The notes beneath the pieces were generated by a model. It worked only from the letters and a program-made list of their open reading frames with translations, was not told the DNA's origin and ran no database searches. From Sphingomonas sp. QA11 (lineage in GTDB: Bacteria; Pseudomonadota; Alphaproteobacteria; Sphingomonadales; Sphingomonadaceae): a stretch of DNA of 64,000 nucleotides. Position numbers and translations under genes: made by a program. Below, one piece after another: positions 11,580-59,229 of this stretch (the first letter of the stretch is position 1; every line of letters begins with the position of its first letter). The stretch is taken from the NCBI RefSeq assembly GCF_028473665.1, contig NZ_CP098774.1, positions 5,017,501 through 5,081,500 on the forward strand, given 5' to 3'.

Positions 11580-11738
11580 TTCTTCCCTCTCCCAGCGGGA
11601 GAGGGAAGGGACCCGCCGCGTAGCGGTGGGAGGGTGAGGGCGACAAGCCATGATCGAACGAGTTGGGTTGAGAGGTTTACCCTCACCCTCCCACCGCTAC
11701 GCGGCGGGTCCCTCCCTCTCCCCTTCAGGGAGAGGGTA
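11580..11738. repeat. long inverted repeat between fabI and aroC
   Basis: Two arms of roughly 60 bp (11580-11640 and 11678-11738) are near-perfect inverted copies separated by about 37 bases. Each arm holds smaller palindromes, including CCCTCTCCC/GGGAGAGGG and a block CCCGCCGCGTAGCGGTGGG. As RNA it would fold into a very long hairpin. The right arm ends one base before the GTG start of aroC and includes the purine run AGGGAGAGGG, which looks like the ribosome binding site of aroC. Confidence 0.92.
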
Positions 11739-12810: not shown

Positions 12811-12840
12811 TCGGGAGTCGATTTCTCGACCCGACTACAC

Positions 12841-12936
12841 CGTCATGCCGGACTTGTTCCGGCATCCGCTGTTCCGCAAATTCACCGGCGCTTTGGTCGG
12901 CGGCACGGTGGACCCCGGAACAAGTCCGGGGTGACG
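12841..12936. repeat. intergenic palindromic repeat (ACTTGTTCCGG family)
   Basis: A two-hairpin element between the converging aroC and purA genes. The left hairpin is GTCATGCCGGACTTGTTCC with GGCAT; the right one contains ACCCCGGAACAAGTCCGGGG TGACG. The two parts are inverted relatives of each other. The same family is seen at 46335-46430 and as a partial copy near 59093-59120. It lies where transcription from both sides ends and could act as a weak terminator. Confidence 0.82.
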
Positions 12937-12971
12937 GGCAAACCCGCTGACCGATAGTCCGCGCCTTCGAC

Positions 12972-14406: not shown

Positions 14407-15510
14407 TTAGAGCGGCCGGGCCGTCCCCTCCACCAAAATATGCGTGCAGAGCTGCGCTTCGGGCGTATCGCCCGCCTCGAGCGCCGCGACGGTGACCCAG
14501 CCCTGCGCGCGCATCGCGACGGCGTGGGCCGGGTCGGTATCCATTGGCACGAACAGGCGCCGGCGATCCACATCGGCCAGGCCGGCCGCGACGATCGCGT
14601 CGACATAGAGCGAGAAGCCGGTCGCGGCTTCCTCGCTGCCATCCTCATGGACGATGGTGTAGCTGCCGCCCCGGCCGATTTCGCCACGCACGCCGTCGGC
14701 GAAAATCGAGAAGCCGAGCCAGGTCTGATATTCGAAGCCGTGGCGCTCGGTCGGATCGAGCGTCAGCGCGGTGCGCCCTTTCAGGCCCGACGCGATCTGC
14801 CACAGCCCGTCGAGCCGCGAGCGCAGGGCGCCGCCGACATCGAAGGCGCACAGCCGGTCATGTGCCGCGTCGAACGGGCCGGCTGACTCGATCAGCGGGA
14901 GATAGGCGGGGGCGATTTCCGCCACGCCGCCGGCATCCTTGGCGTCGAGCCGGTCGCGGAGCGGCTCGATCAAGGCAGGATCGAGGGGCAGCGGGCCTGC
15001 GGCAAGGATCGAGACCAGGTCCGGCAACGTGAAATCGATCGAAACGCCACGCACCCCGGCAGCCTCCAGCGCCTCGACCGCGACTCCGACGATCTCCTTC
15101 GCCGCGGCGACCGTATCAAGTCCGATCAGCTCGCAGCCGATCTGGCGCAGTTCGCGTTCGGGGCTGAGCTGCGACGCGCGGAGCTTCAGCACCGGGCCGG
15201 CATAGGACAGGCGCACGGGGCGCGGATGGTGCCCCATGCGGGTGGCGGCGATCCGGCCGATCTGCGCGGTCATGTCGGGCCGGATGGCGAGCGTCGCCTG
15301 CGACACGGGATCGACGAAGCGCACCGCATCCTGCGCGCGCGCCGCCTTCAGCCGGCCGGCCAGCCCCGCCTCGAATTCGGCGAGCGCCGGGTCGGCGCGC
15401 TCATATCCATGCGCATAGGCGGCCCCGAGCACCGCCGCCTCAAGACGTGCGGCGGCATCGCCGAACGGCGGTAGCCGGTCGCGGAAACCTTCGGGGAGTA
15501 GGCTGCTCAC
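14407..15510 (-). CDS. hisZ: ATP phosphoribosyltransferase regulatory subunit (HisS-like)
   Basis: A 367-residue paralogue of histidyl-tRNA synthetase lacking the anticodon-binding domain. It pairs with the short form of HisG to catalyse and control the first step of histidine synthesis. Class II synthetase-like stretches are LLPEGFRDRLPPFGDAAARLEAAVL, VDPVSQATLAIRPDMTAQIGRIA and LTLDPTERHGFEYQTWLGFSIFADG. The GTG at 15510 starts the expected VSSLLPEGF; upstream codons are only translated repeat. HisG is not in this window. The purine-rich end of a CCCTCTCCC repeat sits just upstream of the GTG and acts as the apparent ribosome binding site. Confidence 0.92.
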   Translation of the reverse strand: MSSLLPEGFRDRLPPFGDAAARLEAAVLGAAYAHGYERADPALAEFEAGLAGRLKAARAQDAVRFVDPVSQATLAIRPDMTAQIGRIAATRMGHHPRPVRLSYAGPVLKLRASQLSPERELRQIGCELIGLDTVAAAKEIVGVAVEALEAAGVRGVSIDFTLPDLVSILAAGPLPLDPALIEPLRDRLDAKDAGGVAEIAPAYLPLIESAGPFDAAHDRLCAFDVGGALRSRLDGLWQIASGLKGRTALTLDPTERHGFEYQTWLGFSIFADGVRGEIGRGGSYTIVHEDGSEEAATGFSLYVDAIVAAGLADVDRRRLFVPMDTDPAHAVAMRAQGWVTVAALEAGDTPEAQLCTHILVEGTARPL

Positions 15511-15877
15511 TTCTCCCTCTCCCCGCTTGCGGGGAGAGGGCCGGGGAGAGGGGCAGTATGAAGCGCAGCGAGAATGGCTGAAAGCACAGCCTCCTCGTTT
15601 CCCATCACTTCTGCGTTCGCGAATCGGATCACTCGATAGCCTTGTTGTTCCAGCCACGCAGTCCGCCGCGTGTCGTGCTCCCCGTCGTCTCCATGCGTGT
15701 CCCCGTCAACCTCTACGATCAGCTTGTGCGATCGCGCGACGAAGTAGGCAATATAGGATCCTATGACCACCTGCCGGGTAAACTTGATGTCGTTCAAGCG
15801 CTTGGCGCGGAGATGGTATCAGAGACGCGTTTCGGACGCGTCTGCTCGCTGCGCATTTGTTTTGCGCGGTTCCGCAT
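15507..15877 (-). pseudogene. DUF559 (Vsr-like nuclease fold) gene, frameshifted and with a nonsense codon
   Basis: The intact downstream part reads NDIKFTRQVVIGSYIAYFVARSHKLIVEVDGDTHG, then RRTAWLEQQGYRVIRFANAEV, which is the DUF559 core (restriction-endonuclease-like fold with Glu, Asp and Gln/Glu positions). Upstream, the ATG at 15877 gives MRNRAKQMRSEQT, and a second frame then gives DASETRL, a stop (TGA at 15821-15819), and YHLRAKRLNDIKF. Family members read about QTDAEKRLWYHLRAKRL here, so one frameshift (a 4-base loss at the repeated GACG fits) and a Trp-to-stop change have broken it. CCCTCTCCC palindromes flank both ends. Confidence 0.8.
15511..15556. repeat. CCCTCTCCC-family palindrome abutting the hisZ start
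   Basis: Contains TCTCCCTCTCCCCGCTTGCG and its inverted partner GGGGAGAGGG, then a further GGGGAGAGGGGC. On the minus strand it ends GGGGAGAGGGAGAA three to four bases before the hisZ GTG start, in the position of a Shine-Dalgarno sequence. It also encodes the C-terminal tail LPGPLPASGEREK of the adjoining DUF559 reading frame. Confidence 0.85.
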
Positions 15878-15898
15878 CGCCTCACTTGTTCACGTCAC

Positions 15899-15927
15899 AG
15901 CCCCTCTCCCCGGAGGGGAGAGGGCTT
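15899..15927. repeat. CCCTCTCCC-family palindrome upstream of the DUF559 pseudogene
   Basis: A compact near-perfect palindrome, CCCCTCTCCCCGGAGGGGAG followed by AGGG, lying between the 3' end of serA and the DUF559 remnant. With the copy at 15511-15556 it brackets the pseudogene on both sides. Confidence 0.85.
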
Positions 15928-33605: not shown

Positions 33606-33893
33606 CAAAATCCTCCCCCTCCCCGAAACTAAGCGCTTCACACATCGCAAGGCTCTCTTTCTCCCTCTCCCCCTGTGGGAGAGGGAAGGGCCCCATCGCT
33701 CTCGCGATGGGAAGGGTGAGGGGGACACTCGTTGACCAGTGTCCCGAACCTCACTCTCCCTCATCCGACCTCGCTGCGCTCGGCCACCAGTTTTGCCGAT
33801 CGTCGGGTAAAACATGCCCCCGGCATGTTTTAGAAATGCCCGGGGGCATTTCGACCCGTCGCTTGGCAAAACTCCCATAGGGGGAGAAGGATT
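33606..33893. repeat. composite cluster of palindromes downstream of smc
   Basis: The 379-base gap 33604-33982 is mostly nested palindromes. They include CCCTCTCCCCCTGTGGGAGA, a CCATCGCTCTCGCGATGG hairpin, AAAACATGCC-CCC-GGCATGTTTT, AAATGCCC-GG-GGGCATTT, and an outer inverted repeat of TTTTGCCGATCGTCGGGT with a partner ending CGACCCGTCGCTTGGCAAAA. The last pieces sit inside one another, so the RNA could form a branched cruciform. No gene is seen in it. It follows smc and may end its transcript. Confidence 0.85.
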
Positions 33894-36433: not shown

Positions 36434-36555
36434 TTTTCAGCGTCGCTGAATCGGTGCCAGCCCGCTCCCCCACCCGGCCACCCATGGAATACTGCCGTTG
36501 GGTGGCCGGGTGGGGGAGCGGGCTGGCACCGCCACCGTTTCAGCATCGCTGAAAC
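36434..36555. terminator. very long hairpin between converging genes
   Basis: A perfect 32-bp inverted repeat (36453-36484 and 36499-36530) with a 14-base loop, flanked on each side by a smaller palindrome, TTCAGCGTCGCTGAA and TTTCAGCATCGCTGAAA. There is no U-tract, but its place between the AAA ATPase gene and the HEXXH gene suggests a bidirectional stop or RNA stabiliser. Confidence 0.8.
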
Positions 36556-46280: not shown

Positions 46281-46334
46281 TCTTCCTTCTCCCGCCGGGA
46301 GAAGGATTCAGTATCCGAGCGACCTACATCGAAT

Positions 46335-46430
46335 CGTCACCCCGGACGGGTTCCGGGGTCCACGGTGCCGCGTACCAGCAAGTTTCGACTCTTGCGGCCC
46401 GGTGGATGCCGGAACAAGTCCGGCATGACG
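46335..46430. repeat. intergenic palindromic repeat (ACTTGTTCCGG family)
   Basis: CGTCACCCCGGACGGGTTCC at the left and TGCCGGAACAAGTCCGGCAT GACG at the right. It is the same two-hairpin design as 12841-12936 with a different inner spacer. It lies between the converging Rrf2 and mscL genes, after a separate small TTCTCCCGCCGGGAGAAGGA hairpin at 46287-46307. Confidence 0.82.
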
Positions 46431-46470
46431 GATTTGTTCGATCGGCGTCGGCCTTGATCGAAAGCCAGGC

Positions 46471-50869: not shown

Positions 50870-53419
50870 TCAGCGTGGTTGCGCGCGGCGCGCATCCGCA
50901 TTTTTCGTCCGTGTGGTCGGCACAGCGGCGGCCGGATCGTCAGGCCAGGGGTGGCGGGGATATCGCCCGCGCATTTCCTTAGCGACCGCTACCCAGCTTC
51001 CCGCCCAGAATCCCGGAAGGTCGCGGGTCGTCTGGATCGGCCGTCCGGCGGGCGAGGTGAGACTCAGCACCAGCGGCACGCGCCCACCCGCGATGGCGGG
51101 ATGGGTGGCGAGCCCGAACAATTGCTGGGGGCGGAGCTCGACGCGCGGGCCCCCTTCGGCGGCATAGTCGATCGGGTGGCTTGTCCCGGCGGGAGAATGG
51201 AAATGAGTCGGCGCCTGCGTGTCGAGCGTTCTGAGGGTGTCCCAGCCGATCACGGCGCGCAGCGATTCGGCCAGCGCGCCGGTGTCGAGCGCGTCGAGCC
51301 GCCGTTTGCCGGCGAGCAGCGGGGTGAGCCATTCGTCGGCACGGGCGAGCAGATGCGCTTCGTCGATCTCATCCACCGAACCGCCGGCCTCGTGGACGAA
51401 GGCGATTCGGTCGAGCAGCGCGCGGGCGGCGTCGCTCCAGGGCAGCAGGGAGAAACCGCCGGCCTGAACGCCTGCCAGCAGGGCGGCGGCGATCTCCTCC
51501 GGATTCGCGTTGGAGTCGGGCCCGCTCGACAGCCGGATAGCGCCGAGTCGCCGTTCGCGCAGCGCCTCTACCCCGCCGGTCGCCGGATCGAATTTGACGC
51601 TGCGTCGCGTCTCGATCCGGTCGCCGAAGAGGGATTCGACAGTGGCCAGATCGATCGGCGCGGCGGACAGGATACGCGCGCCGGAGGCCATACCCTGCGT
51701 TTCGGCGACCGCGAGCCATTCGTTCCGGGCGAGCGAAGAAGCGGGATCGAGCTTGAACCCGCGACCTCCGGCCGACGCCCAGCTCTCGCCGCTTGAGTCG
51801 CGCCGCTTGGCGATCCGGTCGGGGAAAGCGAGTGCGATGGCGATGGCCACCCCTTCTTGCCCTCTCCCCTCTGAGGAGAGGGCGGGCGAGCGAAGCGAAG
51901 TCGGGAGAGGGGCAGTGGGGCGCCGTTCGTCGGACACACTGCCCCTCTCCCCTGGGGGGAGAGGGCGAAGAAGGCTTGCCCATCTCTTTGCCAGCTTTCG
52001 CCCGCCTTCGGCCCTCGGCCCGCGCTCAGTCCGCCAGCGCCGCACCCGGCTCTCCAAGTCGACATCGTTCCCGCCAAGCCCGCGCTCGCCGAGCAGCACC
52101 GCCACCTCGGCCGCCGTCCCGGCCAGCCCGATCTCGCCCGCGCGCACCAGCATGTGCCCGAGCCGAGGCGGCAACGGCAGCCGCGCGATCGCCTTGCCGT
52201 GCGGGGTCGGTCGGCCGTCGGCATCGATCGCCTCCAGCACGCTCAGCCGATTGCGGGCCTCGTCGATCGCGGCGGCCGGCGGTGGATCGAGCCAGGCGAG
52301 TGCGCGCGGATCGGCCACGCCCCATAGGGCGCAGTCAAGCGTCAGCGCTGACAGATCGGCCTCCAATATCTCCGGCGGATCGAAGCGCGGCAGCCCGGCG
52401 GTCGCCGCTTCCTCCCACAGCCGGTACGCAACGCCCGGCATCTGCCGCGCGGCGCGGCCGGCGCGCTGGGTCACGGCGGCCTGGCTCGCCCGCTCGGTGA
52501 CGAGCCGGGTCATCCCTGCCGCCCGGTCGTAGCGCGGCCGCCGCGCCAGCCCCGAATCGACCACCACCGAAATCCCGTCGAGCGTCAGGCTGGTCTCGGC
52601 GATCGAGGTGGCGAGCACGATCTTGCGCCGGCCCTGCGGATCGGGCGTGATCGCCGCGCGCTGGGCGCCGGGATCGAGGCTACCGTGCAGCCGGTGCAGG
52701 ACGATGGTGTCGCCAAGGCCATCGATCCGTTCGGCGGTCCGCTCGATCTCGGCCACGCCGGGCAGGAAGGCGAGCACGCCCCCCGTTTCCTCGCGCAACG
52801 CAAGCCTGATCGCCCCCGCGACCGAATCCTCTATCCGCGCCTCCGCCGCGCGGCCGATATGGCGCAGGGTGAGCGGATGGCTCCGACCTTCGCTCTCGAT
52901 CACCGGCGCACCGGCCATCAGGGTGGAGAAACGTGCGCCGTCCAGCGTTGCCGACATCGCCACGATGCGCAGGTCCGGGCGCAGTGCCCCTTGCGCATCG
53001 AGTGCCAGTGCTAGTCCGAAATCGCTGTCTAGGCTGCGCTCATGCACCTCGTCGAACAGCACCGCCGAGACGCCGGCCAGTTCGGGATCGGCCTGGATTC
53101 GGTTGACGAAGATACCCTCGGTCACGACCGTGACTCGAGTCTCGGCCGATCGCTTCGAATCCATCCGCGTGGCGTAGCCGAAGGTCCTGCCGACCGGCTC
53201 GCCCGCCAGCGCCGCCATTCGCTCGCCCGCCGCCCGCGCGGCGAGCCGCCGTGGCGACAGCAGCAGGATCTCGCCGTCGCACCAAGCCTCGCCTAGCAGG
53301 GCAGGCGCCACCGCCGTCGTCTTGCCCGCGCCCGGCGGCGCGACCAGCACGGCGTTCGACCCCGCCCGCAACGCGGCGAGCAGGTCCGGCAGCACGGCAT
53401 GGATCGGGAGGGGAGTCAG
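50870..53419 (-). CDS. hrpB: ATP-dependent helicase HrpB
   Basis: About 849 residues, a DEAH-box helicase. It has APPGAGKTTAVAPALL (motif I), SPRRLAARAAGERMA, VVTEGIF, VLFDEVHERSLDSDFGLAL (DEVH box), MSATLDG, LATSIAETSLTLDGISVVVDSG and TQRAGRAARQMPGVAYRLW (motif VI). The helicase C-terminal domain starts near ARLPLPPRLGHMLV. A CTG at 53419, overlapping the preceding stop by four bases, gives the expected TPLPIHAVLPDLLAAL; the next usual start is a GTG eleven codons later. A palindromic repeat lies in frame at about residues 481-523. The RNA target is unknown. Confidence 0.93.
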   Translation of the reverse strand: MTPLPIHAVLPDLLAALRAGSNAVLVAPPGAGKTTAVAPALLGEAWCDGEILLLSPRRLAARAAGERMAALAGEPVGRTFGYATRMDSKRSAETRVTVVTEGIFVNRIQADPELAGVSAVLFDEVHERSLDSDFGLALALDAQGALRPDLRIVAMSATLDGARFSTLMAGAPVIESEGRSHPLTLRHIGRAAEARIEDSVAGAIRLALREETGGVLAFLPGVAEIERTAERIDGLGDTIVLHRLHGSLDPGAQRAAITPDPQGRRKIVLATSIAETSLTLDGISVVVDSGLARRPRYDRAAGMTRLVTERASQAAVTQRAGRAARQMPGVAYRLWEEAATAGLPRFDPPEILEADLSALTLDCALWGVADPRALAWLDPPPAAAIDEARNRLSVLEAIDADGRPTPHGKAIARLPLPPRLGHMLVRAGEIGLAGTAAEVAVLLGERGLGGNDVDLESRVRRWRTERGPRAEGGRKLAKRWASLLRPLPPGERGSVSDERRPTAPLPTSLRSPALSSEGRGQEGVAIAIALAFPDRIAKRRDSSGESWASAGGRGFKLDPASSLARNEWLAVAETQGMASGARILSAAPIDLATVESLFGDRIETRRSVKFDPATGGVEALRERRLGAIRLSSGPDSNANPEEIAAALLAGVQAGGFSLLPWSDAARALLDRIAFVHEAGGSVDEIDEAHLLARADEWLTPLLAGKRRLDALDTGALAESLRAVIGWDTLRTLDTQAPTHFHSPAGTSHPIDYAAEGGPRVELRPQQLFGLATHPAIAGGRVPLVLSLTSPAGRPIQTTRDLPGFWAGSWVAVAKEMRGRYPRHPWPDDPAAAVPTTRTKNADARRAQPR
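51852..51977. repeat. CCCTCTCCC-family palindrome lying in frame inside hrpB
   Basis: Outer arms CTTCTTGCCCTCTCCC and, reversed, CTTCTTCGCCCTCTCCCC enclose an inner perfect 14-bp hairpin, GGGAGAGGGGCAGT / ACTGCCCCTCTCCC. This is the same family as the intergenic copies at 11580, 15511 and 33640. It encodes a Pro/Arg/Ser-rich stretch (about LLRPLPPGERGSV to LSSEGRGQEG) in HrpB between KLAKRWAS and AIALAFPDRIAKRRD, with no stop codon and no frame change. Confidence 0.88.
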
Positions 53420-53769
53420 CGGAATTCCTGCGTCACGACGATCTTGCCGATGATCGCCGCGTTGAAGGCGGGCAGGTCCTCGGCGGGGATCCAATATTCC
53501 AGATGCGCGCGACCGCCAGCTTCCTGAACGGCATGGCCGTCGAGATAGTCCTTCCGCACCTCGAAGCGGGTGACGTAGCCCGAGCCGCTCGCTTTCACGT
53601 TCCAGTCGCGTGCGATCTTCACGGCATAATCCTCGGTCAGCACCGGATAGAAGATCGGCTGCTCGGGCAGGCGCGGCGGAAAGGCCCGGAAGCCCGCCTG
53701 CTCGATCAGCGCAAGTTCCGTCGGCCCGACAGGGCGCCAAAGAGTGATGGTCTCGATCTCGGCTGTCAT
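53416..53769 (-). CDS. conserved protein of unknown function (often labelled ADP-ribosylation/crystallin J1)
   Basis: A 117-residue protein: ITLWRPVGPTELALIEQAGFRAFPPRLPEQPIFYPVLTEDYAVKIARDWN, then GYVTRFEVRKDYL and HLEYWIPAEDLPAFNAAIIGKIVV. The pattern is common in Proteobacteria and databases give it the label ADP-ribosylation/crystallin J1, though the function is not established. The ATG at 53769 is the start. Its stop overlaps the proposed CTG start of hrpB, so the two would be coupled. Confidence 0.82.
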   Translation of the reverse strand: MTAEIETITLWRPVGPTELALIEQAGFRAFPPRLPEQPIFYPVLTEDYAVKIARDWNVKASGSGYVTRFEVRKDYLDGHAVQEAGGRAHLEYWIPAEDLPAFNAAIIGKIVVTQEFR

Positions 53770-53884
53770 TTGGCGATTCTAGGCGGATCCATAAGGTAAT
53801 GGCCACAAGGCGAGGGTGTTCGCCCATGTCCTAGCATATCCCGGGCAAGCGATGGTACGCCTGCGCCAGCTAACGGAGAATCGC

Positions 53885-59082: not shown

Positions 59083-59229
59083 GCTTCGGGCCGTCATGCC
59101 GGGCTTGTTCCGGCATCCGCCCCGTGGCTGGGCGCGGGTGACAAAAGTCCGGCTGGATTCGGCATATTTGTCGGGGTTCCACGAAGGGAAACCGTCGGAA
59201 TCCGCATGCTTCCTGTTGGAGACTTTTGT

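Follow-up and report, generated by a model that had tools for sequence, protein, structure and literature searches.

Introduction

Bacterial genomes carry several kinds of short palindromic repeat. Those closest to the element described here are the BoxC, PIT or intrastrand triplex motif (TM) repeats, which have been known since the 1990s, are abundant in many genomes, and in E. coli were reported as intergenic without exception (Holder et al. 2015, PMC4666352). The survey of their E. coli surroundings never found them with activities that would provide genetic mobility (PMC4666352). In Enterobacter sp. 638, 100 repeats of the form CCCTCTCCCXX(X)GGGAGAGGG were presumed to be transcription terminators at the 3′ ends of genes (PMC2869309). 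Palindromes within coding sequence are known from two further settings. Rickettsia palindromic elements (RPEs) of about 150 bp lie in frame in unrelated genes (PMC10969869), and intragenic repetitive extragenic palindromes (REPs) lie within coding regions that include those of tRNA synthetases and RNA helicases, with different REPs at about the same recB site in two Xanthomonas species (PMC3733652). The CGTC REPs, a group whose hosts include sphingomonads, "apparently lack a dedicated transposase" (PMC3733652). The element in question here belongs to a palindrome family with the core CCCTCTCCC and lies in frame inside the helicase gene hrpB of Sphingomonas sp. QA11, on a stretch of 64,000 nucleotides (contig NZ_CP098774.1, positions 5,017,501 to 5,081,500) that we call the window.

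The hairpin of this family, CCCTCTCCC and GGGAGAGGG around a short loop, is repeated genome-wide in many copies, with purine tracts nearby. It corresponds to the motif in Table 1 of PMC4666352, and the palindromes are BoxC/PIT/TM repeats; the repeats of Enterobacter sp. 638 have the same hairpin (PMC2869309). Unlike the E. coli TM set, which is intergenic and comes with no mobility gene (PMC4666352), the family here occurs in frame within hrpB and four other genes of the window's genome and also beside a gene of the DUF559 family. It is like the RPEs in being palindromic and in frame in unrelated genes, a likeness of description and not of membership, and unlike them in its bacterial hosts, in the several families found at one loop, and in having a candidate partner gene. 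Since in-frame palindromes are already known as RPEs and intragenic REPs, the hrpB insert is in itself of a known kind. GTAG REPs are accompanied by REP-associated tyrosine transposases (RAYTs) (PMC3733652), whereas the CCCTCTCCC family is accompanied by DUF559. Caulobacter VsrA, a DUF559 protein, is described as a PD-(D/E)XK, Vsr-like putative endonuclease that causes the SOS response in cells without a methyltransferase; DUF559 is placed there in mismatch repair, and the string "palindrom" is absent from the main text (PMC12907096). No link between DUF559 and these palindromes was found among the open-access papers listed, as judged on titles, abstract openings and passages. We favor, at a probability of about 0.68, the reading that the hrpB insert is a gene-less copy, itself non-autonomous, of a small mobile element that in its complete form carries a DUF559 gene.

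An In-Frame Element in a Repeatedly Filled Loop of HrpB

Within the window, CCCTCTCCC occurs 15 times against 0.77 expected, a count reached by none of 100 shuffles, and the hairpin pattern is found 44 times in the 5.58-Mb genome against once for a reversed control. One copy lies in an open reading frame (50870-53827, minus strand) that has the Pfam domains DEAD, Helicase_C and HrpB_C. The original prediction held that a palindrome sits in frame within hrpB with no stop or frameshift, and this is borne out by a frame that is open throughout 51852-51977 and by two hairpins with perfect stems in an element of roughly 110 bases. Arms of CCTTCTT and AAGAAGG carry the pairing out to 51852 and 51974; these limits are approximate, and the coordinates first proposed are adequate. 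The purine tract GGGAGAGGGG lies about 20 bp from hairpin 1 and overlaps the stem at hairpin 2, and the fold energy of the insert stands at z −4.9 relative to shuffles. The first 14 bases of the left arm of its inner inverted repeat, GGGAGAGGGGCAGTG, recur beside the left hairpin of the DUF559 unit that begins at 15515. It had also been claimed that the same nested palindrome recurs between genes at 11580, 15511 and 33640. The first of these is indeed a complete solo element; 15511 and 15902 turned out to be the two ends of one 410-bp DUF559 unit, and in place of the copy at 33640 there is a single perfect hairpin, at 33663. In the protein, residues 3-439 and 510-826 align with E. coli HrpB (6heg) and the loop between them stays unaligned. 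An AlphaFold2 model of the window's HrpB from 30 sequences has a mean predicted local distance difference test score (pLDDT) of 75.8, with residues 473-504 below 50 between helices at 454-468 and 505-517, and some further stretches also below 50.

The gene is present in all 61 genomes of the genus. Its loop was read in 58 of them, the gene being split or cut in G004, G007 and G012, and in 80 named loci, giving 138, of which 137 were readable (L053, with a broken frame, was excluded) and 125 distinct once 12 duplicates had been taken out. From anchor to anchor, the interdomain loop measures 53-70 residues in 88 of the 125 and 73-122 residues in 37. Whether relatives without the palindrome encode the same segment had been fixed beforehand as the point on which an insertion could be refuted, and the short-loop proteins do not have it. 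The DNA of the loop folds more than 3 standard deviations below dinucleotide shuffles in 36 of the 37 long loops and in 1 of the 88 short ones, and a long inverted repeat (score of at least 9) is present in all 37 and in 10 of the 88, respectively; the one long loop that fails the fold test (L257, z −1.7) still has the inverted repeat. Classes were assigned to the 37 by motif search together with our own reading, which gave nine of class A (CCCTCTCCC), 17 of class B (CCCCTCCCG), four of class Bt (CCCCTCCCT), three of class C (TCGAGCGAAGTCGAG type), three of class D (CCCCGCGAAAGCGGGG, translated as "RHPRESGDP") and one of class F ("RHPGLDPGS"). Classes A, B and Bt all occur at one HrpB site among Sphingomonas glacialis E6.1, S. 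glacialis CGMCC 1.8957 and S. psychrolutea. A HrpB tree made with FastTree after removal of the loop requires at least 26 changes for the classes and 21 for the long or short state; well-supported branches force 16 of these 21, and the counts are silent on gain versus loss. By chance, 0.07 hairpins of classes A and B would be expected in the HrpB loop over 57 genomes; a long loop is found in 17 of the 57, and 14 of these 17 are of class A, B or Bt. The insert in hrpB is genuine and in frame, many relatives do not have it, and its loop has been filled repeatedly. The original prediction had missed that this loop is a hotspot shared by several unrelated palindrome families, and that a likely partner gene, DUF559, is present elsewhere in the window.

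Loop length and composition vary even among the short-loop relatives, and this variation might be taken to mean that the segment in hrpB arose by convergence as an ordinary low-complexity linker, with no insertion at all. We give that account next to no credence, and for the long loops it is refuted, because the DNA itself is palindromic in 36 of 37 of them and its family is repeated 44 times in the genome. Congeners, moreover, carry different classes that are translated in different frames, and in the loop of L047 (G054) palindromes are nested within a palindrome. At L053 (G024), the hrpB frame is broken at the loop and the conserved flanks lie 35 nt apart, possibly through imprecise loss of an element.

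In-Frame Copies in Other Genes

Elsewhere in the window's genome, an in-frame element of the CCCTCTCCC family is found in glyS (L078, Pfam tRNA_synt_2f), in two E2 acyltransferase genes (L015 and L091), where it occupies the linker that joins the lipoyl domain to the E3-binding domain, and in a gene of the phosphorylase superfamily (L087). Together with the absence of the segment from palindrome-less relatives, these copies support the earlier claim that the family was mobile at some time and can be translated. The two E2 genes, near 1.28 and 5.12 Mb, are nearly identical, far apart and both furnished with the in-frame hairpin, which indicates a duplicated segment. In GlyS, the beta subunit of glycyl-tRNA synthetase, two loops or more (among them those at residues of about 409-463 and 741-748 of the query) hold different palindromes in different congeners (L078, L350-L379). 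Among the 30 best-scoring GlyS loci, a sample that includes the copy of the window's genome and favors filled loops, a strong inverted repeat occupies the first loop in 29, with peptides of several classes, and a second one, near residue 745, in 15. In a further 16 genomes, 0-15 nt separate the two flanks of the first loop. Residues 578-666 of GlyS are strongly variable.

Two RNA-related proteins show many changes in the same loops, and palindromes were reported earlier in DNA-repair and RNA-binding genes (PMC3733652); together these could suggest that the insert is kept for an effect on the messenger RNA or the protein (stability, pausing, or regulation of HrpB or GlyS), so that selection and not tolerance makes the hotspots. 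We consider this improbable, as 88 of 125 HrpBs manage without the segment, unrelated families serve equally, and the filling sits in a low-confidence loop of the model. Survival within a gene would instead reflect tolerance of an element with a length that is a multiple of three, no stop, and a peptide rich in P, G, R and E within a disordered loop. Were the insert tolerated only in frame and in such a loop, the loops of HrpB and GlyS would for that reason be hotspots.

DUF559 Genes Beside the Palindromes

A DUF559-bearing unit with the same palindrome class as the hrpB insert lies between hisZ and serA in the window (Table 1). Its left hairpin adjoins the probable GTG start of hisZ (15508-15510), and the ribosome-binding region of that gene may therefore come from the element. 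In the window's genome, seven of eight DUF559 hits have palindrome motifs nearby, and a search with PF04480 gave 221 hits in 57 of the 61 genus genomes; such a search can miss copies, since an E. coli control gave none though ycjD of K-12 is annotated as DUF559. The flanks of the 37 best-scoring genus hits were read and 36 tested (L137 was dropped at a contig end) for a perfect hairpin with a stem of at least 9 within 200 bp of the gene. A hairpin was found on the left in 29, on the right in 30 and on both sides in 24, and 34 of the 36 have one of pyrimidine type on at least one side. Hairpin density at these loci is 4.72 per kb within 200 bp and 0.26 per kb beyond. As a control, genes for GIY-YIG endonucleases, another small nuclease family, had a flanking hairpin in none of 29 loci (29 of 30 were long enough). 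Across the phylum, DUF559 was found in 68 of 200 genomes. Outside the genus 28 loci were read, and a hairpin stands on one side or both in 26 of them, with one of pyrimidine type in 21.

The class of palindrome is also matched to the gene it accompanies. Among 61 loci entered in the class test (L099 was not entered, and L100 and L101 were too short), 39 have a clear class on both sides, and left equals right in 36 of these against 13.4 expected. On a DUF559 tree of 54 loci, in which most forks are weak, class requires 10 changes against 26.5 when shuffled, and none of 200 shuffles came as low; a single genome can hold several palindrome classes. Palindromes of matching class lie beside or on both sides of the DUF559 genes in the genus, as they do for most of the DUF559 genes examined across the phylum. 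Copy numbers point the same way, with a Spearman coefficient of 0.73 (p 3e-11, not corrected for kinship) between DUF559 hits and hairpins of classes A and B over 61 genomes, which is still 0.67, likewise uncorrected, once two hairpins per hit have been subtracted. The four genus genomes without DUF559 have 3-8 hairpins, and DUF559 hits are more numerous in genomes whose HrpB loop is long than in the rest (17 versus 40 genomes, p 7e-5, again without correction for kinship).

The DUF559 proteins match a solved relative, 3hrl, in sequence, and at least 90% of 59 domains retain each of the core columns E, DF, E.DG and H. The ratio of nonsynonymous to synonymous substitution rates (dN/dS) is 0.06-0.23 in five pairs with dN of at most 0.11 and reaches 0.77 in distant, near-saturated pairs, with a median of 0.49 over 121 pairs. 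In Picosynechococcus PCC 7003 (L175), a cyanobacterial DUF559 gene sits between palindromes of another class, such as CCCCCAATATTGGGGG, and in a Neisseria gonorrhoeae record (L173), CTCTCTCCCTGTGGGAGAGAG and CCCTCCCCC palindromes are repeated downstream of a DUF559 gene.

These palindromes might instead be moved by a RAYT (Y1 transposase) system, as GTAG REPs are, and their general resemblance to REP elements and three Y1_Tnp hits in the window's genome would suit such a mover. The distribution does not: Y1_Tnp is found in 5 of the 61 genus genomes, versus 53 with A hairpins and 61 with B hairpins. The flanks do not either, since a hairpin within 200 bp was found in none of the nine Y1 loci (of 11) that were long enough to test. 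We regard a role for RAYT as highly improbable, and on distribution and flanks we reject it as the mover.

Occupied and Unoccupied Junctions

The junction between serA and hisZ was compared in 30 loci and measures 19-27 bp in seven, 59-62 bp in three, 123-125 bp in two, 356-539 bp in 15 and more than 1 kb in two, with one locus lacking a resolved length. Eleven loci, the window's own among them, match the DUF559-containing query taken from the window from one end to the other. At the sufB-sufC junction, 31 loci were read, two of which were left unassigned. A whole DUF559 unit is present in five loci and in Sphingomonas parapaucimobilis YK209 (NZ_CP155753), with a partial match in L216. Two loci (L219 and L226) hold a gene-less unit of 120 or 124 bp whose ends are 78-94% identical to the ends of the DUF559 units, two hold a remnant of 42-46 bp, and others have class C and D palindromes or unrelated DNA. 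DUF559-bearing and gene-less units occupy common junctions, and the alignments indicate that DUF559 units come and go at these operon junctions. The ends of DUF559 units also match the ends of solo units elsewhere in the window's genome. By sequence, gene-less and gene-bearing units have their terminal inverted repeats in common, as in a miniature inverted-repeat transposable element (MITE). Unlike a MITE derived from an insertion sequence, the gene between the palindromes is predicted to belong to an endonuclease family and not to encode a transposase.

More distant bacteria give comparable arrangements. The paaD-paaZ junction of Deinococcus psychrotolerans holds a DUF559 unit that has a 71-bp inverted repeat (93% identity), and in Deinococcus sp. 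QL22 these two genes are 83 bp apart. A clean empty partner was not found among the Sinorhizobium and Azospirillum plasmid matches listed. The DUF559 protein of E. coli is YcjD, and TMECO no. 9 of the published triplex motifs (PMC4666352) lies at 168 bp from the 3′ end of ycjD (L380, MG1655 1351204-1351760). A degenerate triplex motif overlaps that 3′ end, and the 5′ side has a different hairpin. Of 5,426 E. coli genomes, 3,333 hold 80% or more of the ycjD stretch; no clean empty site was seen in three of the genomes below 80%, where fabI is followed by TetR and efflux genes, which indicates a wider regional difference.

A Proposed Mechanism and Its Alternatives

From the flanks and junctions together, we infer that the palindromes have moved and that DUF559 is a good candidate for their mover. 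The complete element would consist of pyrimidine/purine palindromes of the BoxC/PIT/TM type as ends around one predicted gene for a DUF559 Vsr-like endonuclease. This enzyme would nick or cut DNA at or near the palindromes or their targets, and break repair or replication would then copy the element to a new site. Families C, D and F use the same HrpB loop but would require another mover.

Several observations weigh against this scheme. Transposition itself was not seen in the genomes compared, and the window's own DUF559 copy is broken. A target-site duplication was sought at serA-hisZ, at sufB-sufC, in the hrpB pair L016/L045 and in the Deinococcus paa pair, and none was resolved; the loop of L045, the closest empty hrpB partner, has diverged too far, and the two Deinococcus sequences differ near the junction. 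The DUF559 loci are top-scoring ones (37 of 221 in the genus and 28 outside) and not a random draw. L099 is a DUF559 hit with no hairpin close by, and outside the genus hairpins stand on both sides at only 9 of 28 loci. The correlations with hairpin number and HrpB loop length leave kinship out of account, and copy numbers are loosely coupled, with 100 A hairpins to three DUF559 hits in G003 and 89 B hairpins to one in G007.

Other observations on this side also suit a different account, in which the palindromes are mobile by another route (replication slippage, gene conversion or a host enzyme acting in trans) and serve as neutral landing pads or terminators for DUF559, a passenger or later colonizer. 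Classes C, D and F fill the same HrpB loop with no link to DUF559, several genomes are rich in palindromes and poor in DUF559, and the E. coli triplex motifs are restricted to the 3′ side of ycjD. Against a passenger role stand the agreement of left and right class in 36 of 39 loci and a class that follows the DUF559 clade, although one genome can hold several classes, as well as the lack of such bracketing at GIY-YIG genes. We consider a passenger role unlikely, while holding it the most serious of the alternatives.

The DUF559-bearing mobile element can be extended to a broader proposal, on which we are evenly divided, that DUF559 endonucleases move BoxC/PIT/TM palindromes throughout bacteria. 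These would then form a transposase-free class built as palindrome, DUF559 gene and palindrome, the abundant "triplex" repeats would be its gene-less derivatives, and its in-frame insertions would add loops to HrpB and GlyS. A specific and widespread enzyme family beside or between these repeats makes their origin testable, and DUF559 gains a concrete hypothesis in addition to mismatch repair. The loops of these two proteins also present a route for the repeated gain of protein segments outside Rickettsia. For annotation, peptides like "PLSPTLSPEGRG" in sphingomonad proteins derive from elements.

Feature Coordinates and Further Palindromes

Table 1. Positions of the hrpB insert, the DUF559 unit and related palindromes in the window
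Feature	Coordinates	Strand	Remarks
hrpB homologous coding region	50870..53377	-	open frame extends to 53827; homology begins at 53377 and runs downwards
Two-hairpin palindromic insert with short flanking arms	51852..51974	-	translated within ...LLRPLPPGERGSVSDERRPTAPLPTSLRSPALSSEGRGQEG...
Terminal hairpin 1 of hrpB insert	51859..51883		perfect stem, 9
Terminal hairpin 2 of hrpB insert	51943..51965		perfect stem, 10
Inner inverted repeat of hrpB insert, left arm GGGAGAGGGGCAGTG	51903..51917	+	
Inner inverted repeat of hrpB insert, right arm CACTGCCCCTCTCCC	51937..51951	+	
DUF559-bearing unit, same palindrome class as hrpB insert, between hisZ and serA	15515..15924	-	410 bp
DUF559 (PF04480) domain	15561..15851	-	111.6 bits; one internal TGA; genome 5033061-5033351
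Left terminal hairpin of DUF559 unit	15515..15540		
Right terminal hairpin of DUF559 unit	15902..15924		
Solo (gene-less) two-hairpin element	11582..11736		complete; also given as 11585-11736
Lone hairpin of the CCCTCTCCC family	33662..33686		a single perfect hairpin

The window holds further palindromes. A perfect 33-nt inverted repeat of different sequence, with a 14-nt loop, lies at 36452-36531 in an open reading frame that may be ligD. At 12827-12937, 46334-46444 and 59091-59121 there are CGTCATGCCGG/CCGGCATGACG palindromes that resemble the CGTC-tagged REPs of PMC3733652.

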